64,000 nucleotides of DNA, taken from the NCBI RefSeq assembly GCF_026151205.1, contig NC_087074.1, positions 11,317,226-11,381,225 of the forward strand, given 5' to 3'. This stretch comes from Bolinopsis microptera (Eukaryota; Ctenophora; Tentaculata; Lobata; Bolinopsidae). Each line of letters opens with the position of its first letter. The first letter of the stretch is position 1. This document shows positions 43,823 to 58,767 of this stretch, piece by piece. Both the position numbers and the translations under genes were made by a program. The notes below the pieces were generated by a model. That model searched no databases, had not been told where the DNA came from, and was given only the letters and a program-made list of their open reading frames with translations.

Positions 43823-45541
43823 CTATTCTGAAACGTGAACGTTTGTGTCTGAACTAACTGAAGAACCTGGACATAACTGTACCAGCTCACTTAAATTGCA
43901 GCCAAGTATCTCTGCATGCCTCAAAGTAACAAAAGCCAATGTTTCAGTAGCAATTTCGAGGGTCACACCGTAGGACATGTTCAGATATTGCTGAGTCCGA
44001 TCGTTCGTCTGCTTCGGTCTGATGGTCAGAAAAGTTAAGAAAGATCGTTTGAAATCGTCCACATCCTTCAGTTTCTGGAATGTAACGTCGATGTCTCCGA
44101 GCTGGGATGCTTTCTCTAGTAATATGCTGGCAAAACGCCAGTCTGACCGGATCTCATATGGCTGAAATTTGAACAGTTGATAATTGTCAATTCCTTTATG
44201 AAAATCAATAGTTTGGAGTTCGATTTTAAACCAGAGGACAGAGAGGTCTATAAATTTAAGGTTTAGCATAAGAAACAAGATCTTTAAATCTGAGCATAAT
44301 AAACAAGATCTAAAACCGAAGATGAATTGTTAAAGAGACTCACCACAGGGTAGGTATCAGAAGTGTCCTCTATAACTTGACTCTCAGTCATTTTCAGATC
44401 CTTCAGGTCCTCCAAATTGTTTGGCAGATTGTCAATATTAACGGGAGCAAAGCAGGCCGCTTGAGCAGACCTACTGTCCTCATACTCCGACACAATCCTG
44501 CTCCTTACACTGCCCTGAAACTCGTCCAGATCAGTATAATGATAGTCCGGTACAAACTCCTCCTCCTTCTCCTCCTCCCCCTCCTCCATTGTCTCTCCTG
44601 ACTCGCTACTCCCCTCCTCCTCTTCCTCCTCTTCTCCGAGTATCTCCAACTTTAGCTCCGCGTACATCATCTTAGAGCATGCTAGTTTAGCGATCTTCTT
44701 GCTGGAGCCGCGCCCCTGTTGAGTGTGTGATCCTATACACACTTCTAGCAAGTAGTCACTCCGACTCCCTCCAGGGGATTCTAACACTTGGTAGGAGGGC
44801 TTAGCTAGCTTGTGTCTCTGTATAAACTCCTGGGGTAAATTTAGGTTAGTTACTTGACACCATCAAGATAGGAAAGTTTAACATGATTTTCGGAGCCATT
44901 TTCCGTTTCTACTTTAAACGTTTTAAAATCTTGACTCAAATACACATGTATGCTTGAACGTGTCAACTTACGTGTAACAGAGCTACAGCATTTTTCCTGA
45001 TCCTCCTCCCGGCCCCAATAACTCTCTGCTGAGATACCTCCTGAGCGGTTATCTTCTCTAGCTCTTTTACTATGTCACGTGCTGCATTGTTCTTTGCTTC
45101 TTGTTTTGTTTTCCCTGTTCCTACTTTGTCCTGGAGAAAGGGACCATTTAGACAACACTGGTAATAGCACGGCAGTAGAAATTAGACATACTTTCACGAA
45201 TAGACGTAGTTTTCAAGTTTTGCTCAATTTGAAACAAAATTAATGATGGTCAGGCCGGTCGGATAGGAAGAGGAAAATAAAACACAAAATACGCACTGTA
45301 TTAGTGTGTAAAAGTAAAATCTCCAGTTTCTCCTAAAGTGAATTTAACCATTTGTAAAATAAAATCCCCACAAGTAGCACTCACATACAATGACGAGATC
45401 AGGAACACGGAGTGTCAGTGAGTATAGGATCCCAGTAGGGGTATCCGAGGGAACACATGACACTACTACTGGCAGTGAGATCTGCTTCCGGGTTAGGTGC
45501 TTGTTAAGGAGATCCAGGTAGTGGTTCTCTCCTTCCGTCAT
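43823..45541 (-). CDS. Double-stranded-RNA-binding domain protein (Staufen/TARBP/PRKRA-like), 4 exons
   Basis: Predicted exons on the minus strand are 45541-45389, 45130-44972, 44829-44344 and 44161-43823. All introns are phase 0 with GT-AG ends (donors GTATGTGAG, GTAAGTTG, GTGAGTCT), giving 378 residues. dsRBD 1 spans ~7-75, crossing the first intron, and ends with the basic motif GTGKTKQEAKNNAARDIV. dsRBD 2 spans ~98-168 (AKPSYQVLES, GRGSSKKIAKLACSKMM). A very acidic linker (EEEEEEE, then EEGEEEKEEE) follows. The C-terminal ~110 residues resemble the degenerate last dsRBD of Staufen or TARBP-type proteins (SQLGDIDVTFQKLKD). Such proteins bind duplex RNA and mediate protein contacts in RNA localisation, Dicer complexes or sensing. 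Two canonical dsRBDs plus a third degenerate one fits TARBP/PRKRA/Loquacious as well as a short Staufen. I cannot choose between them. A further 5' exon is possible. Confidence 0.75.
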
Positions 45542-46171: not shown

Positions 46172-47977
46172 TCACTTCTTCTTCTTGTTCTTTCCACCAC
46201 CACTACCAAAGAACATGGCAGCCGCCACCCCAGCAATAGCTACCCCCGCAATAGCCGCTCCAGCCGCTATTGGTGCCACTATATCAACCCAGGACTCCTC
46301 CTTCTCACTCTGAACACTAGAGGAGGGTCCGCTAGAGGAGAAGGTCCCTACTTCTTGTTTCAGACTTGGTTGTGAGCATGTTGTTGAGACTAGTGATCTT
46401 CCTGGTTGAGATGAGATGCTACGTGGAGGGAGGGAGTTAGGACGGGTACTGGAGTTAGGAGAGGTACCGGAGTTAGTACTGTCTCCAGGGTTGGTATCCG
46501 GGAGCAGGTTAGTGCTAGCATCAACAAACTCATCACGTGACTCATCACGTGACTCGTTACTTCTGCCTTTGTTCTTTAGCACTGCTACTCCACTGATAAA
46601 ATGTAATTTTAGTGGTTCTACAATATAAATGCACTATCATCCAACATGTTAACACTTAACAGTTTTCTTTTAGAATCAGTACCTATTGTTGCAGATTGAG
46701 TTAATTTTTGACACGCTGGGCAATGTTGAGCATTTCAGCAAGTTGTTTTATGGAACTCTTTCGTAAAAATACTTTAGAGCTTTTATTTAGATTAAAAGGA
46801 AATGAGATTAAGTAACAGTACCAACCTTGATACAATTTGTAAAGCGGTCTGTTCGCCAATTCTCCTATCTTTCACCACATCGAAATAGATCCCATTTTCT
46901 TTAGTGATAACATACGGAATTTTACCTGCCACTATTCGTCCTAATCCACTGAAAATAACCTTCGGTTATAAGTTTATAAGTTTATACTAAATACCATCTT
47001 ACCATACATATCTAATGCCCATTCTAACCAAATTTAAGTTTGATACTTCCAACTTCAATTTCTATATACTAAGGTTAAACAGTAAAAACAGAGAATTTAC
47101 AACAAAACCATAGCAGTTTAAAAACCCGACCAAAGGCAAAATAAACAGTAAGACAAACAGGTAACAAGAATTGCGCCCGTTGTTTCGTTTAGGCGGACGC
47201 TAGATTTCCATTCCACATTTACTATAAATTTAAGTATAAGCTCCAATCAGCTCACTTCAATCTTCATGATAATAATATTGATAAATTAAAACGTCCATTC
47301 GTAACCTTCCACTTTAAATTTTTACAAAATGGTGGATGGAAAAAATTAAAATAAATAAAACAAACATTTGCTGGAGAGTGTTGGCATCAGCTTCACATAG
47401 GAACTTATCAGTGTCCGTATTATAGTAGCACTCCCAATAAGGGCTGGACTGATCATGCAGGATAACACTGCACGAGGTAGAGGCAGGAGCTCTTCCTATC
47501 ACTATCTTACCAAGGCCTCTGAAAGAAGGGTTTTTAAAAATAACATCAGGAAATTAATTGTTATATTGGGGATACAAATGGCATTTTGATTTCGTTTTCT
47601 AACGTAACCAGTGTAAGTTTACACAGTAACTGAATAATACATTATTTACCAGGTTACTAAGTTACTTGATAGTTACTAAGTTACTTACTGGTTACTTAGA
47701 CTCTGTGCCTCATTAGGAGAAATGAACTGTTTGATAGAAGTGTTGTAGAACTGTAGAGACTCTTCTTTTGAAGAATCGTAAATTATCTCAAACCTGTTGT
47801 AATAATAAAGCGTCTTAAACAAAGCAATTCTAGTGATATTAGAACTGGAAACTGGCACTGATATTACTACTGGCACTATAACTAAAAACTGCCAAATTGA
47901 ATTTATGACTAGTAGGCATGAATAGTTATCAGCCATATTATGGACCAAAAGTAAAGTTTCCCAACTTACTGTGCCAT
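46172..47977 (-). CDS. Modular protein with exon-encoded ~40-50-aa repeats and C-terminal hydrophobic segment
   Basis: Predicted exons are 47977-47970 (ATGGCACA only), 47844-47689, 47518-47366, 46948-46826 and 46592-46172. All introns are phase 2 and GT-AG, giving 286 residues. Exons 2-4 each encode one copy of a repeated module whose core aligns without gaps: QFYNTSIKQFISPNEAQSL, CYYNTDTDKFLCEADANTL and IYFDVVKDRRIGEQTALQI. Modules after the first open with GLGKI/GLGRI. Exon 5 opens like another module (GVAVLKN), then turns into a Ser/Asn/Pro-rich linker. It ends with an Ala/Gly-rich hydrophobic stretch (AAGAAIAGVAIAGVAAAMFF) and a lysine tail (KNKKKK), consistent with a C-terminal membrane anchor. 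The neighbours on the same strand share the modules or an IFI27-type domain. I do not recognise the module. It faintly resembles plectin-type repeats (aromatic-D...LS..EA). Function unknown. Confidence 0.7.
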
Positions 47978-48862
47978 AGTTTCACGGTCTTTAAACAGAG
48001 CTTTCAGTGAACTAGTTTTCAGTGAGCTAGTTTTCAGTGAACTAGTTTTCAGTGAACTAGTTTTCAGTGAGCTAGTTTTCTCGAGACTAGAGTCGCGCGT
48101 TGGCCCTTCCTAGTGGACATGAACTGTAGAAGTTCTTATAAGATGTATCTGTCAAATGGTATAACGTCGATTTAGTATTATAACAATGATAATATAACTG
48201 TCGATGATCATTATCTTTTTGATATAAGAAGTCCTTCAAGACATACATTTTATTAAGTTAAGCGTGGCAATAAAAAGGTCGCAAAGACGCAAATTACGAG
48301 CCAGTGGATACTTCATTATTTATTCTCATTTTACTTAGTTAACAGCATTTTTATCTTCTTCAATTAGTGATAAATCATAGTTGCCATTATGGACGAGGAA
48401 GGACAGCAATGGACAGAAATAATATTAAACATTATAATGCATTCATACAATACAATGGTCTAAAACGATATTACACAATATAGTAAAATAAAATATATAT
48501 TATGTAAAACAAAAATTTGATAAAAATTTCGACTGTTTTGGTTCGACTAACGTTTGCCGAGGTTTAAGATGAAATAAAATCATAGAACTATTCATAATCA
48601 ACAAGGTGCAGGTTCGTGATTTTCTTCGACAAAATCTTAAATCTCCAATCTCCATGCATGATTCAAATCAAAATGAGCCGTTAAAAATTTTAAAATTGAA
48701 GTAAGATTACATGTTAACGTTGACTTAATCATTGTCCTACTCTGGGATTCAATTCTTGAAACGTTCTTTTTTTGCTCGTCATCTTCAAAATAAACCTTTC
48801 CTTGACGGTACTTCCTAGAAGCAGCACACGGCCCATTTCGGACTTGCACGAGTTATAATTAA
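47978..48862. other. Spacer between modular genes
   Basis: Holds the 15-bp tandem repeat at 48001-48075. It also has a minus-strand ORF at 48637-48849 whose peptide (RQGKVYFEDDEQKKNVSRIE) loosely resembles the repeated module but lacks phase-2 splice sites. The rest is AT-rich and unassigned. Confidence 0.45.
48001..48075. repeat. Five 15-bp tandem repeats just upstream of a start codon
   Basis: TTTTCAGTGAACTAG repeated five times with an A/G variant. It reads CTAGTTCACTGAAAA on the coding strand of the gene starting at 47977, placing it 24-98 bp upstream of that ATG in the 5' UTR or proximal promoter. Each copy carries one GAAA core. Confidence 0.85.
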
Positions 48863-51100
48863 TTAAATTGACGGTAAAACACTCTTTCTTCGTTTTCTCT
48901 TCTCCCCGAGATAATTATATTTAAGAAGAGCACCAAATGTAACTGTCGCTGCTGCAGCTACAACAGCTACCACTGTTGGAACTGCGGTCCCTATCAAAGG
49001 TGTTGCAGCAACACTCTGCAGGGAAGCAAACCACGATCCAGCAGCCACGCTGCCAATACCAGACTGGATCCAAGCAGCTGCTGAACCAGCCGCTACACCT
49101 GCTGATGTGAATCCCATTGCAAAGGGGACTGAAGCAGCTCCAGCAGCTACTGCTGTGGTTCCACCTGCAACTGTTCCTCCAACCAAAATTCTGGGAGATA
49201 AATTTATGTGTCGGGTTTTAGCTTATCTGGGCGTTTGAGTGCTTTTTTAATGGGAGAATCTGAAAAATTGTAGTAGTGGACAAAACATACGCCTTATCAT
49301 TTCTTGTAAATGGACACGTTCAAAAAAAGGTGGCACTAGAGATTGATTTTTTTAAATGCGTTTTAAAAATAGTCATTGTTCTTTGTTGGTTGATATATCT
49401 ATCTATACCTATAGAAATTCGATTAAATTTCATGATCCTGAAATCACGGAGTCTCTAGTGCTTATATTACAGGAGTTATCGTTATTTGTGTGCCAATGAT
49501 TCAAATATCACACAATTAGAAATGCAAGATGAATCAACACTAGATAATCTGAAAAGTACTATTCACAAAGACGTCAAAATTGATATGGTGATTATAATGC
49601 ATGTAAGGAATGGAATGTCTTATCTGAAATTGTTATTGGTGCCAAAATGATTCAAAAATCACAACTTAAACGTTGGAAATGAGCCTATTTTGAGCAGTGA
49701 TTATTGAATCATCTTACGTTTTTATTGGCTTTCTATCATTTTTTAGGGTACAAAATAGTTTTAAATAGTATTAAAACCAGTTAATATGATTCAAAAATCA
49801 CATTTTCGTTAAAGGTGCGCTAATAAGTCACACTATAGTAAGCCTTAAATTAAGTGCACGATATGACAATTTATATCCATTCTATGATTCTTATTATGTG
49901 ATTTTTGAATCCATGTCTAAGCTTATACCATATTAAAGGCCTTTGAGCGATAATTTTTGGTCTCGGTGCTTAAATGATTCAAAAATCACACAAATCTGGC
50001 CACCAAATATGTAATTTCCTTTAAAGTGTGATAATTGAATCATACGTAATGTTCAAGTTGTAATGACATTTTGAAAGTAAAGGTAATGAATCGATAATCA
50101 CATTTCAAAAATCCGATTAAGTATTATATGTAACTGATATGATTCATTTGTCACATTATGGCGACAAAATTATCATGGCTTGAGCTGTAAAAGTACTTGC
50201 CTAGTTTACTCAGTTTAAAATCAGTTTTTTGTGATTATTGATTCCACTATACTCTAATAACGAACTTCTCCATGACCATAAACAAGTGTCACAACAAATT
50301 ACTGCAGATTTACTATGAATACCAACCTGATATAGAGCCAAAAAGTGATACATTCCCCTGATACAGCATAATTTCAATACATGCTCATTTATGTGATTTT
50401 TGACTCATTATGGCACTTTTAACCATCTAAATTCTCTAAATATTAGTTAGCATGATATAATTGTGATTGATAGAGTTCATTGTTACAATCGTTCCGTTGA
50501 TATTCATATCACATTCATCATTCTAAAACACTTAGTCAGAATTAACCCTGTGTGTGATAATTGCATCGTAACGCCACATTTAACCGGTGATACTTTGCAC
50601 TTTTAACACTCAACTATCTCAAAAAGGTTCAATAATCACATTGAGAAGCAGTACACACTCACAGAATGTAAATTCATCATTAGAGGTGCAAGAAATGAAT
50701 ATTTTGTGATTTCTGGCTCATATCTGCACAATTAACAGATATAAAGAGATGAATGACTTAATTATGTGATATTTGAATCTTTTTGGACCACATATTAAAA
50801 TTTGGTTAACTTTCATAGCATACTCATTGAGATACAAGTATTTTAAAATGCTTCACACAATTTTGGCAGTGAAAAATCAATCTCTAGTGCCACCTTTTTA
50901 TGAACGTGTCCAAATCACGCTTATTATATGACCTCAAGTTTCAAAGTATTAACGATGGTCGGTAACCCTACATTCACTACAATGATCGGTGGTTCGGAAC
51001 TAACTTTTCGTTAAGCTCATCATTCTCACTCTCTAAAAATCTTCTTCTGATAAATCTAAATTTATTCATAATTTTGTATTGCCGAAGAATTGGCTGATGC
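48863..51100 (-). CDS. ISG12/IFI27-like hydrophobic protein, 5' end not found
   Basis: The last exon (49190-48863) encodes 109 residues with a Gly/Ala-rich domain (PFAMGFTSAGVAAGSAAA, then IQSGIGSVAAGSWFA) typical of the ISG12/IFI6/IFI27 family, and ends with a basic tail (EKRKRRKS). These small membrane proteins are interferon-induced in vertebrates and occur in mitochondria and other membranes; the role in invertebrates is unclear. A preceding exon is supported at 51100-51005 (peptide NKFRFIRRRFLESENDELNE): acceptor TTACAG, donor GTTAGT, 96 nt, phase 2 at both ends, as in the neighbouring gene. The intervening intron carries the 1.6-kb TIR element at 49311-50912. I could not find the start codon or repeated modules further upstream, so the gene is incomplete here or decayed. 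The core is nearly identical to that of the gene at 51967-53514, which suggests recent duplication or gene conversion. Confidence 0.65.
49311..50912. mobile_element. 1.6-kb TIR element packed with a 16-bp partial palindrome
   Basis: The ends are inverted: TGGACACGTTCAAAAAAAGG followed by TGGCACTAGAGATTGATTTT at the left, and the complement with one or two changes at the right (~50872-50912), giving TIRs of ~40 bp. AAAT adjoins both ends and may be the target duplication. The interior has no ORF. It holds about 20 dispersed copies, in both orientations, of a motif near TGATTCAAAAATCACA (clear ones near 49496, 49647, 49697, 49786, 49896, 49974, 50027, 50085, 50138, 50231, 50391, 50552, 50626, 50702 and 50763). 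The motif is an imperfect palindrome, TGATT...AATCA. The superfamily is unknown and the element is non-autonomous. Confidence 0.85.
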
Positions 51101-51966
51101 CTGTAATTTTGAAATGATCAGAAGATTCAGAGCAACGATACACTGGCCGATAACTGAACTAATTTGTATCAGGTCCTATGAAGCGTCTGGACTATAAATA
51201 ATTATTGTTAAATTAAAGTCGTTCAACTTCCAAAATCGCTATTTTCTTGATAAAATGATCTGTTTGTCTAAGTAATCAATGCGACTTCAGTTCATATCTT
51301 GAATCGACTTCTTGGATCTATGTCTTTTGAAAAATCATAAATACCTTTCAAACGATGATAGTTGATGTCAGAGAAGGGAACAGATTAGAGGGCCGATCCA
51401 AGAAATGAACCCAGAAAACAAAACAGATATTGGGATGAAAAGAGAGCCATTCTAAGAGAAGACATGGACAATCGTAGGAGGATGAAATGGAATCCTATCC
51501 CACAGTACCGTGAAGTGGATAATATTGGAGAGATTATTATTATTGTACTGTTTAGAAGTTGTGTATGGATTGAGAGGGCAAAACTAATGAGGGGGTCGCA
51601 GAATGTTGATATAATTATAGTGATGAGTTTAGTTTTTGTGTGTGTGTGTGACAAAGAAAACACAGACTGTTTTATTCAGTTATTTTCTTTGAATTTTGAG
51701 AGAACGATAAAATGAACAGAGCAAAGAGCATTTTAATAATTCAAAAATTCAATTCTTTGGAAAAGATCAAAATCAGGGAGGGGGGTCTTCATATTCAGGG
51801 GGCTGATTCCCCCCAAGACCCTTATTGTTTCCGTTAACATTTACACGTTCATTGTCATCATCATCATCTAGCTGATCTTCATATTCCTCTAACAATCTAT
51901 TCTCTGACATTAAAGCCTCAGCTTCTTTACTAACTATTAAACTCTCTCTCTTCTCTCTCCTCTTCT
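51101..51966. other. Spacer between two IFI27-like genes
   Basis: Should contain the missing 5' exons of the gene to the left, but I find no module-like reading frame flanked by phase-2 splice sites. A second copy of the acidic-tail coding sequence of the right-hand gene lies at ~51838-51909. Confidence 0.45.
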
Positions 51967-52046
51967 TCAGACATTTACACGTTCATCGTCGTCATCGTCA
52001 TCTAGTTGATCTTCATATTCCTCTAACAATTTCTTCTCTCTAACTA
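51838..52046. repeat. Tandem duplication of the acidic C-terminal coding segment
   Basis: The string ATTTACACGTTCATYGTCRTC, followed by CATCTAGYTGATCTTCATAT and CCTCTAACAAT, occurs at ~51838-51909 and again at ~51972-52040, a spacing of ~134 bp. The right copy encodes the Asp-rich tail of the gene ending at 51967. The left copy lies beyond its stop codon. Confidence 0.85.
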
Positions 52047-53514
52047 AACTCTCTCTCTTCTCTTTCTTCTTCTTCACGTGCTTGTGCAACAGAACACCGG
52101 ATGTTACCGTCCCTGCTACAGCCCCAACAGCTAACACTGATTGAAGTGCAGTTCCTATGAAAGTGGTAGCTGCAATGCTCTGCATGATAGCAAACCAAGA
52201 TCCAGCAGCCACGCTGCCAATACCAGATTGTATGGCAGCGGCTGCTGAGCCGGCAGCCACACCAGCTGATGTGAAACCCATTGCAAAGGGGACTGATGCT
52301 GCTCCTGCTGCCACTGCAGTTGTTCCGCCAGCTGCTGTTGCTCCAAGCAGTAATCTGATGGAGTAATTTTAAAATCAGGATTCAGATGATAATAAATTTA
52401 CAAATCGCAAGGTAATATGGGGGGGGGGGGGGCCGGGGGCTAATTTTTATCACTGACCAAATAGAGGCAAGGGGAGAATATAACTTACTTCTCTTTAAGT
52501 TTTTCTTTCTTATTCTCACGATCAATTTGCTCAATATCGTCAGTTAGAGAGATAGATTTAGGATTGGGTGTTTCATCTGCCGGTTCAGATATTAAGCTGT
52601 GATCAGTCAAAACAATTTTCAAAGTTGCGACACCACTGAAGGAATATATTATATAATATTATGTTTTGTAGTAGTGGAACAGCAATACTAAGGTAATGGG
52701 ACTTAGTATTGCTGTTCCACTACTACAGAAATAATCCTGATAACACTCGACCTCTGCCTGATCCAGAGGATATCACCATTTTACCTTCACACAGACATCG
52801 AACGCTGTAAGAAGATGACGATCAGACCTCATTAATATTATGTTTTATTTAATGATTTATTTATTGGTTAGTTAACACTTTAACAAATTGTAAGGAAACA
52901 TATTTTTATAAATCAGCATTTAATAAATTATACGCCGTAATTTACTGGGCTTCTAACGCTCTAGCCTATATTGAGCAGGTCGTATAATCATCATCTAAGT
53001 AACCAAGTGCATAGTACAATGAGCTGAAATAAAATAACCTTAGATCAGTAAGTCTCTTAGCCTCAGTCTCGCTGATACACGTAGACTTTGTTGTATCAAA
53101 GAAGCGTCCTGATGAAACATGCAGCAAGATGACGTAAGGAATGTCATTAATTTCTATTTCAGCAACTCCGCTGAAAGGGGGTTATTTTTATTATGAAAAC
53201 ATTAAAAAAATAAATTCCATTTCATAGGGATACTCTTACTTCCTTTGGTTAAATAGATTTTTTAAACGGTTCAAGTACACCTATTCAACAAACAAAACAA
53301 AAAACAGCCGGCCACTTTTAAACTATTTTAGGAGTATTGAATTACCGTAATTCTGATGTATTTTCCTTCTTTCTAACCAGATTTACCTGGTGATAAGTTC
53401 TGACGTTATCTTCCGATCAAGAAACTTATTGTCCAAGGGATCATAGAAGTTTGTTGGTCCAGGACTTTTCCTACTGTAGATTATGATGCGTTTCTTCTTT
53501 CTATCTTTCTCCAT
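51967..53514 (-). CDS. Modular IFI27-like protein: exon-encoded repeats plus ISG12-type membrane domain
   Basis: Predicted exons are 53514-53387, 53170-53039, 52635-52489 and 52354-51967. Every intron is phase 2 and GT-AG, giving 264 residues. Exons 1 and 2 each encode a module with aligned cores NFYDPLDNKFLDRKITSEL and RFFDTTKSTCISETEAKRL. Exons 2 and 3 open with GVAEIEI and GVATLKI, but exon 3 becomes a charged linker (IEQIDRENKKEKLKEK). Exon 4 is an ISG12/IFI27-type Gly/Ala-rich domain (~137-205: PFAMGFTSAGVAAGSAAA, SVAAGSWFAIMQSIAATT). It is followed by a Lys-rich and then Asp-rich tail (DDDDDDE). Vertebrate ISG12 proteins are short, without N-terminal repeats, so this is an unusual architecture. 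The start ATG has no upstream in-frame extension that I can support. The donor after exon 2 (GTTATT) is weak. The coding LINE begins only 262 bp beyond the start on the opposite strand. Confidence 0.75.
52668..52726. repeat. Perfect 25-bp inverted repeat hairpin in an intron
   Basis: GTAGTAGTGGAACAGCAATA plus CTAAG (52668-52692) is perfectly mirrored at 52702-52726 after a 9-nt loop. It lies in the second intron of the gene at 51967-53514. It could be a tiny foldback insertion. Confidence 0.9.
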
Positions 53515-53776
53515 GCCGGACTATATAATATTTTTACAGTTTTGACTCCCGATAGGTACAGGGTGGGCCAAAAGTCAGTACCCATACGTTGGGTCTTATA
53601 CCTCCTCCGTGTTTTATATTTGAGAGTTTTTGCTTTGCAGATGGCATACTGTACCTACTTGTTCGAAGGTTCCGTCACCAAAATTTGAAAATTCGATTTT
53701 TGGGGGCCACACCCAATCAACATTGAATTGATTATACTAATGTTTTTAGGATGGTGTGTGACAGTAACGAGTCCGC

Positions 53777-56700
53777 ATGGCAGTGAAAGCAGCCAGTAAG
53801 TTTATCGCCTCGACGAAGATCGCTGGATACCTTCTTTGTGCAACTTTTTCCATCATTGCTAGTACGACACTCAATTTTGGGACATGGAATGTTTGTGGTC
53901 TCTCCACCACTCACAAGCAACATCTTGTTGCAGAGGACATCGACAGATACGATTTAGATATTTTGGCCTTACAAGAAACCAAAACTCGTGAATTCTTGGA
54001 AACAACACTTCCCGGTCATCATAGACTGTTTCTGTTTGACCAGAAGCAGGGTAGACATGGGGGTCTTGGTTTTGTTGTTAACAAGCGTTTTATGGACAGT
54101 GTTTTATCGCATCATCAGATCAGTGACAGAGTCGTTTACATGGACGTTAAACTAAAACCCAATCGGGTAAACAAACCACCTTGTTATATCAGAATTATAA
54201 ATTGTTACAGTCCTACTAATCCTAAATCAGTCCAGAACCCTCAACTAGCTGATCAATTTTATGGTGAGCTTCTTGAGGCTATCAGTGTTCCTGCTCGATT
54301 TGAAGTATGGATGTTAGGTGACTTCAATGCCAAGTTAGGCAAGCGTTCACTTGTTGATGAAGAAAATGGTTTACAGCAGCACATAGGTAGGCATGGTGTT
54401 GGTAGAAGGAACGAGAATGGAGAGAGATTGTTACATTTTCTGGCAGCAAATGGCTTATTTGCTACCAATACTTCATTCTCCCACAGCAGCAGGCATATAA
54501 CTACACGCACTGGATGGATAAGAGACCAATCCACCCGAAAGAGTAAACCATACTTCTCACAGATAGACTATATACTTTGCAAGTCCAGGAGCAAAGCACT
54601 ACTGACTGATGCAAGGTCATATGCGGGAACTAAGCACCGCAGTGACCACAAGCTTGTAGTTGCAAAAGCAGATTTTTCCCTGCGTTATAGTTTCTACAGG
54701 AAGAAGAGGACTACTCAGAAGGCATTCAACACAACCACTCTTGTAGGTAGCATTGCAGCGCAACAACAGTTTAAATCTGCACTTACTGTTAATATCAACC
54801 AACTTGTATCTGAACCTGACTATTCTTCTAATGATACTTGTCAACAGTTCGGAAAACTATTTAAAAGTATTGAGACTGCTGCCATCTCCACTGTGGGTCT
54901 ACGCGAGCCACAGCGAAAGAGACACCACTCTTCTGATAGTGAAGTTGTTGAAATGTCAGAGGAAAGAAAACGATTGCTACAACTTCTGAATAATAATGAA
55001 TACAGAGACAGAAAGGACTTGAGATCAAAAATTAACAAACTCTCAAATGACATTAAGAAGCGACTGAATACTCTCAGAATAGAAGTTGCAAACAGTCTTG
55101 CAGACTCTATCAATAATACAGACGACGGCCGTAAAATGTTTGAAGCTGTCCGGCAACTATCAGGTAACAAGAAATCAGACTCCATCTCTGTTTTTAATGA
55201 CAAGAATCAACTGGTAGATAATGAGAGTGACAAAGCTGACATTATACGCAACTATTTTGAGCAACACTACACAGGACCAGACAGTGAACCTCCACTTGAG
55301 CCGTTTGTTGGCAGTCCTCAGCCACTAAACAATCCCATAACATCCTTTGAAGTGGAACAAGCTGCCAAAAAGCTAAGAAATGGTAAGGCTGTTGGTCCTG
55401 ATGGTATACCAAACGAATTCCTTAAACACTCCCCACCTATTTTCTATTCTACATTTGCACAACTGACCAATCAATCTTTTGAACGTCATGAACATGTACC
55501 TTCATTCACTGAAGGATTCCTTACCCCACTGCAAAAACCTGGTAAGCCACGTGGACCTTTAAAAAGTTTGCGCCCTCTTTGTCTTTTAAACGGCACCAGG
55601 AAGATATTGTCCATGATAGTCCTTAGACGCATTCAAAGACAAGTTTCTCAGTACACTGGACCTTGGCAAAATGCCTACAAGCCTGGCCATAGCTGTGCAA
55701 ATATTGTTTGGACACAACGGATCCTAGTTTCAGTTGTAAAGGAGAAACGCTGGTCTCTACACAAAATGGGTATTGATATGTCATCTGCATTCGACACCAT
55801 TAAGAGATCAGTTTTGCTAGAACTTCTTGCTGATGCTGGTTGTAGTGAAGACGACATCCGACTGGTAAGGTACCTACTCTCATGTACCAAACTGAAGATT
55901 AAAGTGAGGTCTACCGTATCAGGGGAGTTCATTGTCACGATAGGTGCGTTCCAAGGTGATAGTTTGTCTGGAAACCTTTTCACCCTGTATTTGGCTGGCG
56001 CACTTTACCACCTTCGTGCCTTTATGTCTTATCTAAGACCCAACCCTCCGTTTGCTGAAAACCTGCTACCTCTTGAGTGGGAGTACGCAGACGACGCAGA
56101 CTTCACAGACGTGGATAAAAAGAATTTGGAGTCCATGTTACCAATATGCAAGGAGATATTGGAGGAGTGGAATCTTTTTGTCAACGAATCAAAAACAGAG
56201 TTCACACATATCTATCTGGCCGAGAAGAACGAAGTTGATGACAAAGGAGAGCCACTTCGAGGAAGAGAGCCCTGGAGATCATCTATCTCACTTGGTTCCA
56301 AATTGTGCAGCAACGAGGACATAAAAAGACGATGTGTTCTGGCAAATCTTGCTTTCCAAACCTACAAGAAAGTTTGGGAACAAGGTAAACGCATACCTCT
56401 TAAGACCAGACTTAAGATCTACGAAGCCCAGGTGGTCTCCGTCTTAATGTATAATTGTAGCTGCTGGGCAGCTTCAAAGCAGCTACTGAGTAAACTGGAT
56501 ATTTGCCACAGAAAGCATCTGAGGCAAATCATCAGAATGACTTACCCTAATATAATCAAAAACGACACCCTTTACAAGAGATGTGAAGTGGTTCCACTCA
56601 GTGAGCGTGTTGCATGTGCACGATGGAGGATGCTCGGACATGTCCTTCGCAGTGATAACAACTCACCTGCACAGCTTGCATTACACTTTGCAGTAGAGAG

Positions 56701-56863
56701 TCAGAGTACTAAAAAGGGTAGAGTAGGTAGACACCAGTCGAACTTGCTTAAGACTATTAAATTTGATTTAGGTAGCAGGAACATTCCATTTGTAAATACA
56801 GACGATTTGTACAATTTAAGACTTTTAGCCTCTGATAGAGCGGGATGGAAGAAGTTGTTATAG
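53777..56863 (+). CDS. LINE polyprotein: AP endonuclease + reverse transcriptase (1028 aa)
   Basis: A single uninterrupted ORF. The apurinic-type endonuclease covers ~33-295, with its metal and catalytic residues in place: NFGTWNVCGL, LALQETK, MLGDFNAKLG and HRSDHKLVV. The reverse transcriptase covers ~530-830: KAVGPDGIPNEF, LQKPGKPRGP, GIDMSSAFDTI, GAFQGDSLSGNLF and the catalytic WEYADDADF. The C-terminal region ends in ARWRMLGHVLRSD, a tail motif common in endonuclease-bearing LINEs of the CR1/L2/RTE groups. Family members copy their RNA at an endonuclease nick. LSG in place of the usual LSP after QGD is a variant I note. No ORF1 is visible upstream. With no stops or frameshifts, this copy is young and may be active. 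Confidence 0.93.
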   Translation: MAVKAASKFIASTKIAGYLLCATFSIIASTTLNFGTWNVCGLSTTHKQHLVAEDIDRYDLDILALQETKTREFLETTLPGHHRLFLFDQKQGRHGGLGFVVNKRFMDSVLSHHQISDRVVYMDVKLKPNRVNKPPCYIRIINCYSPTNPKSVQNPQLADQFYGELLEAISVPARFEVWMLGDFNAKLGKRSLVDEENGLQQHIGRHGVGRRNENGERLLHFLAANGLFATNTSFSHSSRHITTRTGWIRDQSTRKSKPYFSQIDYILCKSRSKALLTDARSYAGTKHRSDHKLVVAKADFSLRYSFYRKKRTTQKAFNTTTLVGSIAAQQQFKSALTVNINQLVSEPDYSSNDTCQQFGKLFKSIETAAISTVGLREPQRKRHHSSDSEVVEMSEERKRLLQLLNNNEYRDRKDLRSKINKLSNDIKKRLNTLRIEVANSLADSINNTDDGRKMFEAVRQLSGNKKSDSISVFNDKNQLVDNESDKADIIRNYFEQHYTGPDSEPPLEPFVGSPQPLNNPITSFEVEQAAKKLRNGKAVGPDGIPNEFLKHSPPIFYSTFAQLTNQSFERHEHVPSFTEGFLTPLQKPGKPRGPLKSLRPLCLLNGTRKILSMIVLRRIQRQVSQYTGPWQNAYKPGHSCANIVWTQRILVSVVKEKRWSLHKMGIDMSSAFDTIKRSVLLELLADAGCSEDDIRLVRYLLSCTKLKIKVRSTVSGEFIVTIGAFQGDSLSGNLFTLYLAGALYHLRAFMSYLRPNPPFAENLLPLEWEYADDADFTDVDKKNLESMLPICKEILEEWNLFVNESKTEFTHIYLAEKNEVDDKGEPLRGREPWRSSISLGSKLCSNEDIKRRCVLANLAFQTYKKVWEQGKRIPLKTRLKIYEAQVVSVLMYNCSCWAASKQLLSKLDICHRKHLRQIIRMTYPNIIKNDTLYKRCEVVPLSERVACARWRMLGHVLRSDNNSPAQLALHFAVESQSTKKGRVGRHQSNLLKTIKFDLGSRNIPFVNTDDLYNLRLLASDRAGWKKLL

Positions 56864-57284: not shown

Positions 57285-58440
57285 TCACATTTTCAGCCTT
57301 CCGTGAGTTCTGATTGTAGGTACATTCTCGATACATATTACATACCTCTGAAAGTGAAGGCGGAGCTCCCGCTTCCGAGCTCGTATTGCGAAAGGGAGGC
57401 CTGCCTTCCGAGATCGCATTACAAGGGGAGCCCTCGAGTCCAATATCGTGTATCGAAGGGTATGTGTGACCTTTGAAAGCCGAAAAAAATTTTTCGGCTC
57501 ATAATGATCAGGGTAGCATGAAACATGAACAAAAGTAGTTTCCAGAAAAACTTTGAAAAAATTTTGACTTAGAAAATTTTCGGTCCGAGTCATTCTCGAT
57601 ACGTACCTCTGAAGGCGGAGCTCCCGCTTCCGAGCTCGTATTGCGAAGGGGAGGCCTGCCTTCTGAGATCGCATAACAAGGGGAGCCCTCGAGTCCAAAA
57701 TCGTGTATCGAAGGCCAGGGTATGTGTGACCTTTGAAAACCGAAAAAATTTTTCGGCTCATAATGATCAGGGTAGCATGAAACATGAACAAAAGTAGTTT
57801 CCAGAAAAACTTTGAAAAATTTTGACTTAGAAAATGTTCGGTCCGAGTCATTCTCGATACGTACCTCTGAAGGCGGATCTCCCGCTTCCGAGCTCGTATT
57901 GCGAAGGGGAGGCCTGCCTTCCGAGATCGCATTACAAGGGGAGCCCTCGAGTCCAATATCGTGTATCGAAGGGTATGTGACCTTTGAAAAACGAAAAAAA
58001 TTTTTTCGGCTCATAATGATCAGGGTAGCATGAAACATGAACAAAAGTAGTTTCCAGAAAAACTTTGAAAAATTTTGACTTAGAAAATTTTCGGTCCGAG
58101 TCATTCTCGATACGTACCTCTGAAGGCGGAGCTCCCGCTTCCGAGCTCGTATTGCGAAAGGGAGGCACGCCTTCCGAGATCGCATTACAAGGGGAGCCCT
58201 CGAGTCCAAAATCGTGTATCGAAGGGTATGTGTGACCTTTGAAAAACGAAAAAAATTTTTTCGGCTCATAATAATCAGGGTAGCATGAAACATGAACAAA
58301 AGTAGTTTCCAGAAAAACTTTGAAAAATTTTGACTTAGAAAATTTTCGGTCCGAGTCATTCTCGATACGTACCTCTGAAGGCGGAGCTCCCGCTTCCGAG
58401 CTCTTATTGCGAAGGGGAGGTCTGACTTCCGAGATCGTAT
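57285..58440. repeat. ~255-bp satellite, about 4.3 copies inside the hAT
   Basis: Unit starts (ACCTCTGAAGGCGGAGCTCC) lie at about 57344, 57605, 57863, 58116 and 58371, so the period is 253-261 bp. Units contain GGTCCGAGTCATTCTCGATA and TCATAATGATCAGGGTAGCA and are nearly identical. The long minus-strand ORFs through it have no domain and result from the low stop density of the repeat. An inverted relative lies outside the transposon at 63771-64000. Confidence 0.95.
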
Positions 58441-58443
58441 ATG

Positions 58444-58650
58444 GAAGTTGACCAGTAGACATATAAAACTTGACCAGACGACATAAAGTTGACCAGTAGA
58501 CATATAAAACTTGACCAGACGACATAAAGTTGACCAAACGACATATAAAACTTGACCAAACGACATAAAGTTGACCAGACGACATAAAGTTGACCAGTAG
58601 ACATACAAAACTTGACCAAACGACATAAAGTTGACCAGAAGACATACAAT
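58444..58650. repeat. Short tandem repeat GTTGACCAGTAGACATA / ACTTGACCAGACGACATA
   Basis: About ten alternating 18-22-bp units built on TTGACCARNMGACATA, directly following the 255-bp satellite and ~120 bp before the transposase start codon. Confidence 0.9.
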
Positions 58651-58767
58651 GGATTAAGAAATCGAACAGTAGGTTAAATCAGTGTTGTTATTGAATCGTC
58701 ACTTGTCAGATATTTCGTCATCGATAACGTCATCGTTATTTGCTTGGTATTGTAATCGCTTGTTATA

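Follow-up and report, generated by a model that had tools for sequence, protein, structure and literature searches.

How a small, repeated, one-exon module came to be joined to a membrane-associated domain in a ctenophore, and what the resulting proteins might do, is the question raised by a locus of Bolinopsis microptera. It lies in a window of 64,000 nucleotides (the whole stretch of DNA that was analyzed; contig C3, 11317226-11381225), and searches beyond the window covered a genome of 264.65 Mb in 232 contigs. Two minus-strand genes in this window, here termed A and B, encode strings of such modules followed by a hydrophobic C-terminal part, which in gene A is a domain of the ISG12/IFI27 type. 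We find that the modules constitute a statistically firm family, seen so far at one locus of one ctenophore genome, and that they are joined to an ISG12-type domain in two genes, A and a copy of it termed A'.

Gene A (51967-53514, minus strand) encodes a stop-free translation of 264 amino acids (aa) in four exons of 128, 132, 147, and 388 bases, separated by GT-AG introns in phases 2, 2, and 2. Its first exon (53387..53514) contains the start codon, a basic N-terminus, and module A1 (FYDPLDNKFLDRKITSEL) and reads cleanly up to a phase 2 donor, gtaaat; the second (53039..53170), in phase 2 on both sides, is module A2 (GVAEIEINDIPYVILLHVSSGRFFDTTKSTCISETEAKRLTDL); the third (52489..52635), likewise in phase 2 on both sides and with GT-AG boundaries, opens with G-V-A-T-L-K-I and continues as an acidic/charged linker; and the fourth (51967..52354) encodes the ISG12/IFI27-type (Ifi-6-16) domain and a charged tail. 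Gene B (46172-47977, minus strand) encodes 269 aa in five exons, again stop-free and with GT-AG junctions, and its four introns are all in phase 2. An 8-base first exon (47970..47977; ATG GCA CA, ATGGCACA) with the phase 2 donor gtaagt splices in frame to 47793 and is followed by three exons in phase 2 on both sides, namely, module B1 (FEIIYDSSKEESLQFYNTSIKQFISPNEAQSLSN; 47689..47793), module B2 (47366..47518), and module B3 (46826..46948). The last exon (46172..46592) combines a G-V-A-V-L opening, a Ser/Pro/Thr-rich linker, a C-terminal hydrophobic segment, and a KNKKKK end. Together, the two genes have seven introns, seven of which are in phase 2; we infer splicing at their junctions from the genomic letters. 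A preliminary description of this DNA had placed both genes at these coordinates, with all introns in phase 2 and with a start for gene B at 47977. All of this proved correct, the gene B start depending on the 8-base exon, and on the whole its observations are confirmed and its interpretation is supported in part. By eye, a short tandem repeat of the gaaaactagttcact type occupies 48086-47998, directly upstream of the gene B start.

The five modules in the window, two in A and three in B, are each ~35 to 50 residues long. When their 19-residue cores were aligned in a fixed register, the summed BLOSUM62 score was 177, a value that 0 of 5000 shuffles attained (highest shuffled score, -50); when the register was allowed to vary, the score was 188, and the highest among 300 shuffles was 52. 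This shuffle test is the cleaner of two lines of evidence. In the other, hidden Markov models (HMMs) built with one module left out were run against 7959 sequences, comprising the omitted module, 2000 shuffles, and 5958 six-frame segments, and each of the five modules was recovered at rank 1 (E-values of 0.034 for A1, the weakest; 4.6e-6 for A2; 5.3e-5 for B1; 0.0019 for B2; and 6.3e-4 for B3). These ranks are to be read with the overlap of adjacent modules by a common 7-residue opening and with one residue of B1 that lies outside the gene model. The signal between the two genes is uneven: an HMM from the three modules of B retrieved A2 strongly (rank 1, E = 1.2e-6) and A1 weakly (rank 2, E = 0.12), and one from the two modules of A placed B3 at rank 1 (E = 0.012) and missed B1 (rank 27) and B2 (rank 78).

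The exon after a module opens with G-[VL]-[AG]-x-[IL] in five of five cases, preceded by S or Q in four of them and by I in exon 4 of gene B. Both the alignment of the five cores and the opening S/Q-G-V/L-A/G-x-I/L for most following exons had been noted earlier, and both withstand this closer scrutiny. Because the exon behind the final module of either gene starts with this opening too, the opening could represent the last strand of the unit before it, in which case the exon boundary may lie inside the fold unit, with exon and fold out of step. AlphaFold models of single exons, computed from an alignment of the five window modules that excluded the near-identical copies in A', predict strand-strand-strand-helix in the same element order for A2 and B2 (predicted local distance difference test [pLDDT] values of 70.3 and 69.3, respectively) and leave the G-[VL]-[AG]-x-[IL] opening unplaced.

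The last domain of gene A matches the Pfam family Ifi-6-16 (PF06140) with an E-value of 3.5e-7 and 30.5 bits, over a gathering cut-off of 29.1, in line with its original assignment to the ISG12/IFI27 type. Between A and B lies gene C, which the preliminary description does not mention, an ISG12 gene of 130 aa without modules, whose first exon (51005..51069, minus strand; MNKFRFIRRRFLESENDELNEK) ends in a phase 2 donor and whose second exon (48863..49190, minus strand) encodes the domain; the spliced protein matches PF06140 above the cut-off (E = 3.7e-9). The C-termini of A and C can thus be placed in the ISG12/IFI27 family (FAM14, PF06140), in contrast to that of gene B, for which PF06140 was not listed at E-values up to 10 in a query with a longer N-terminus, one extra residue, and the complete C-terminal segment, under HMMER filters that discard the majority of matches with E-values over about 0.1. 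Within gene C, the intron harbors, by eye, an element of ~1.6 kb (50935-49290) with inverted terminal repeats (ggcactagagattgattttt), resembling a small DNA transposon.

Across the genome, PF06140 gave 13 matches at E-values of ≤0.01 (8 above the cut-off and 5 below it), and two further ISG12 loci (C8:1686084 and C1:24390010) were recovered by protein similarity only, for a total of 15. A phase 2 intron stands immediately before the ISG12 domain in 12 of the 12 genes that were modeled, i.e., A, A', C, and nine others. Of the remaining three loci, C8:1465797 showed no first exon in the stretch read, C1:1806090 has a stop in the upstream frame (by eye), and no intron was seen at C1:24390010. Because the modeled ISG12 genes of this genome have a phase 2 intron at this point, phase 2 module exons could enter there without a change of frame. 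The earlier suggestion that symmetric exons permit module shuffling is strengthened by this shared recipient intron, which has the same phase as the seven introns of A and B, in models drawn without transcripts. The pattern fits exon insertion well and is neutral as to the direction of events. Among the ISG12 loci, modules were found before the domain only in A and A'; the latter is a complete copy of A with 295 aa and introns in phases 2, 2, and 2, situated about 14 kb beyond gene A and outside the window (L003, 3877-2399, minus strand).

Whole-genome queries of low sensitivity, made with a core, with each of the genes A and B, with module A2, and with a consensus of the modules, recovered A, A', and B as the only module carriers. 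The module HMM detected no further module in 234,001 bases comprising the window and those loci of 4000 bases or more, the next match having an E-value of 1.2. Pattern searches likewise yielded nothing that was confirmed, either with the module region of gene B against viral contigs (11 matches) or with gene A against prokaryotic genomes (49 matches). As far as these insensitive searches show, the family seems modest in scale: its modules were seen in three genes of a single locus, of which A' is a recent duplicate and lies beyond the window.

The module region lacks a hydrophobic stretch in both genes (Kyte-Doolittle maxima of 1.13 in A and 1.14 in B). In gene B, a single hydrophobic segment exceeds the cut-off of 1.6 (residues 230-262 of 269; peak, 2.22), with none earlier and with KNKKKK after it, as expected of a putative tail anchor. 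Since the modules are nonhydrophobic and B has this C-terminal segment with KNKKKK, the simplest topology would be that of cytosolic modules on a membrane anchor, and membrane targeting by the partner domain is plausible. Ligand sensing by the modules, also raised in the preliminary description, is speculative.

These data are drawn together in a reading to which we give an even chance of being right, namely, that A, A', and B are exon-shuffled arrays of interaction modules on a membrane anchor. A small repeat module, strand-strand-strand-helix by prediction, would have existed in the ctenophore as symmetric phase 2 exons, which would have entered the phase 2 intron just before an ISG12 domain with the frame kept. 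The module-ISG12 gene arising in this way would later have been duplicated to give A and A', and the related gene B would combine three modules with a different C-terminal hydrophobic anchor. The modules would most likely act as a cytosolic platform for protein-protein interactions, held at the mitochondrial or endoplasmic reticulum (ER) membrane by the C-terminal part. We infer this insertion history, and with it the topology, location, and binding role of the modules, from sequence features. At the C-terminal end of A', after the hydrophobic domain, are the motifs PPEY and PPPY. PPxY motifs pair with the WW domains of NEDD4-type ubiquitin ligases, and those of A' could recruit such WW-domain proteins; because A' has both motifs and WW domains are matched at 25 places in the genome (several of them clustered), the recruitment of a WW ubiquitin ligase can be entertained for A' alone. 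NDFIP-type proteins are PPxY membrane adaptors for NEDD4 ligases, and the motif layout of A' would suit such a role. If correct, this reading would make the locus a compact case of exon insertion, in which phase 2 module exons and a phase 2 intron common to the modeled genes occur together, with the unmodified ISG12 gene C between the modified genes as a built-in comparison.

Several observations weigh against it. The models of the ISG12 genes, which cover 12 of the 15 loci, were drawn by eye. The genome-wide module searches were insensitive, in that the gene B query returned none of the modules of A and the consensus query recovered three of the seven known module copies, so diverged modules may exist elsewhere in the genome. 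Confidence in the AlphaFold models is low (pLDDT of about 70 from five sequences). The ISG12 domain of gene A has one segment that reaches the hydrophobicity cut-off of 1.6, and barely (1.68), and the first intron of gene B is open in frame and, if kept, would supply a hydrophobic leader that puts the modules on the opposite side of the membrane. PPxY motifs are found only in A' and are absent from A, B, and C, which sets these three apart from NDFIP-type adaptors. Finally, with 7 synonymous and 10 nonsynonymous codon differences, A and A' are too similar for selection on residues to be recognized, and their substitution levels overlap, with identities of 94-99% in introns and 96-100% in exons.

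As to whether the module belongs to a described domain, no Pfam domain exceeded its cut-off in the module region, whether whole proteins or single modules were scanned, and NCBIfam and PHROGs gave no significant match there. Against the PDB, the best hit by sequence was ribosomal L33 (E = 0.12), and by fold, Foldseek returned 0 matches at E-values of ≤0.001 for the model of A2 or B2. Three matches under the cut-off were judged to be due to chance: PfEMP1_CIDRalpha1_dom for B2 (E = 0.035), HHH_5 in gene B (E = 0.089), and U1snRNP70_N in gene A (E = 0.12). The view that the family is unrecognised, as first proposed, is upheld in these four collections. It is nevertheless conceivable, if doubtful, that the modules belong to an already described hairpin-helix family, with plectin-type repeats as the likeliest candidate, from which they have diverged very far, and that their apparent novelty reflects the weak profile obtained from five sequences. 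Plectin repeats (PF00681) fold as a hairpin followed by two antiparallel helices and share with the modules the hairpin-helix pattern hydrophobic-hydrophobic-D ... I/L-S ... E-A at equal spacing. Profile-profile alignment of the modules with 16 plectin repeats in hhalign brought the hairpin and helix into the expected register with a score of 17.0, a level attained once in 300 column shuffles and comparing with 10.7 for the reversed profile; the associated probability was reached by 0 of 300 shuffles but is itself only 15.6%. A plectin HMM built for the comparison reported 6610 sequences, among which the highest module stood at rank 141, after several shuffled sequences, and B2 did not appear. 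PF00681 was listed neither in the Pfam scans of the proteins and modules nor in the genome at E-values up to 10, in a search controlled on 14 well-known genomes, its power on animal exons being unshown. The remainder of the module is predicted by AlphaFold, at low confidence, to form strands where plectin repeats have their second helix.

A parallel comparison with WW domains bears on the same point. WW domains, which have two conserved tryptophans and a proline, resemble the modules as predicted, in that both form a meander of three strands, the second of them aromatic, and WW structures account for 10 of the 50 rows that Foldseek showed with B2 as query, none of them significant (all with E-values of 2.7 or worse). 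The hhalign score of 13.6 (probability, 4.3%) was reached by 2 of 300 shuffles. The modules lack the WW tryptophan pair, however, and tryptophan occurs only in B2; no Pfam match to PF00397 was listed, and we reject WW membership, as we do plectin membership. Because WW domains score nearly as well in the same test, the plectin signal looks like a common local motif, and we take both likenesses to reflect a local hairpin motif rather than family membership. The comparison with plectin recommended in the preliminary description thus yields a weak hairpin-helix likeness, and the plectin HMM fails to single out the modules.

A more ambitious interpretation, which we regard as unlikely, is that a new domain arose in comb jellies, spread by phase 2 exon insertion into the ISG12 family, and generated innate-immunity sensors or adaptors bound to a membrane; the modules of these proteins would select the partner, and their ISG12 part would act on a mitochondrial or ER membrane. 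In vertebrates, ISG12/IFI27 genes are studied for their interferon-induced products, which have links to mitochondria and to the sensing of RNA. The comb-jelly complement of about 15 ISG12 loci, some with an uncatalogued module, provides a distant relative for asking what role the family had in early animals. Human IFI27 is described as a putative 122-aa protein and is reported to be mitochondrial and to bind RNA and RIG-I (PMC10175689). That length leaves no room for a module-type N-terminus such as that of gene A, so the assertion that vertebrate ISG12 proteins lack one is borne out for human IFI27, to which the comparison extends. Among the open-licence titles listed on the ISG12/IFI27/6-16 families, invertebrates, and ctenophores, none concerns a module-ISG12 architecture, and a paper on Mnemiopsis immune genes does not contain the words interferon, ISG12, IFI, or plectin (PMC11797021).

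The orientation of the modules could be the reverse of that proposed above. Were gene B to begin at ATG 47936 with its first intron retained, it would encode a membrane or secreted protein with a hydrophobic leader, and the modules would be luminal or extracellular. The intron in question is 176 bases long and open in frame, with a Kyte-Doolittle peak of 2.39 after this ATG, and five of the nine other modeled ISG12 genes (the chromosome C1 group) start, by eye, with a hydrophobic, signal-like segment. We nonetheless find this rather improbable, as the intron has a strong donor (CA followed by gtaagt) and an acceptor (ttattattacaacag followed by G) in phase 2, the short start exon resembles the ATGCC exons modeled for three C8 ISG12 genes, and the N-termini of A and A' are basic and have no leader.

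Comparison of A with A' illustrates how recently the two separated and what has changed since. In the exon of module A2, 129 of 129 aligned bases are identical, apart from one 3-base gap; gap columns number 0, 3, and 0 in exons 1 to 3 and 27, 190, and 1 in the introns, and beyond the start codon the similarity extends upstream for about 35 bases. The last exon of A contains a tandem duplication and a stop before the PPxY tail, and the tail was probably lost in A rather than gained in A'. Directly after the PPxY tail of A' (L003, 2040-2460), an array of a ~31-base unit (accccctgaatatgaagacccccctccctac) is visible by eye, and this unit encodes PPEYEDPPPY in one frame. On the other side of gene A, an open frame of 1031 aa (53768-56863, plus strand) that by eye resembles a LINE endonuclease-reverse transcriptase begins about 250 bp from the gene A start codon, head to head with it. 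That the genes are decaying or unexpressed copies, in which the module pattern was inherited without function, appears quite improbable to us: the altered tail of A, a 3-base difference at its weaker donor, the proximity of the LINE-like frame, and the absence of constraint in the A-A' residue changes would favor it, but A, A', B, and C are all full-length and open across every modeled junction, and the core pattern has been kept in five modules despite wide divergence.

Other features lie around these genes and elsewhere in the genome. Two open frames downstream of gene B (44284-45181, minus strand) contain matches to the motif for binding of double-stranded RNA (PF00035), with E-values of 1.2e-7 and 1.4e-4, the latter slightly below the cut-off; three frames neighboring them were scanned and gave no match. 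The long open frames at 57285-58653 (minus strand) consist of recurring units, such as RARKRELRLQRYVSRMTRTENFLSQNF, and probably represent a tandem repeat. Upstream of a C8 ISG12 gene (L033/L034), there is a long array of a ~20-base unit (ctagcaactctaattgtaac). A segment of one ionotropic glutamate receptor of this genome has its closest solved relatives in entries named ML032222a, from the comb jelly Mnemiopsis leidyi (121.5 bits, with 81.9 for the next protein), as befits a ctenophore host. The IRF-type DNA-binding domain has four matches at three places in the genome (C1:22675816, C7:10431046, and C5:17866166), and groups of ionotropic glutamate receptors occur on contigs C12, C6, C3, and C8, with 32 PF10613 matches and several frames of >900 aa.

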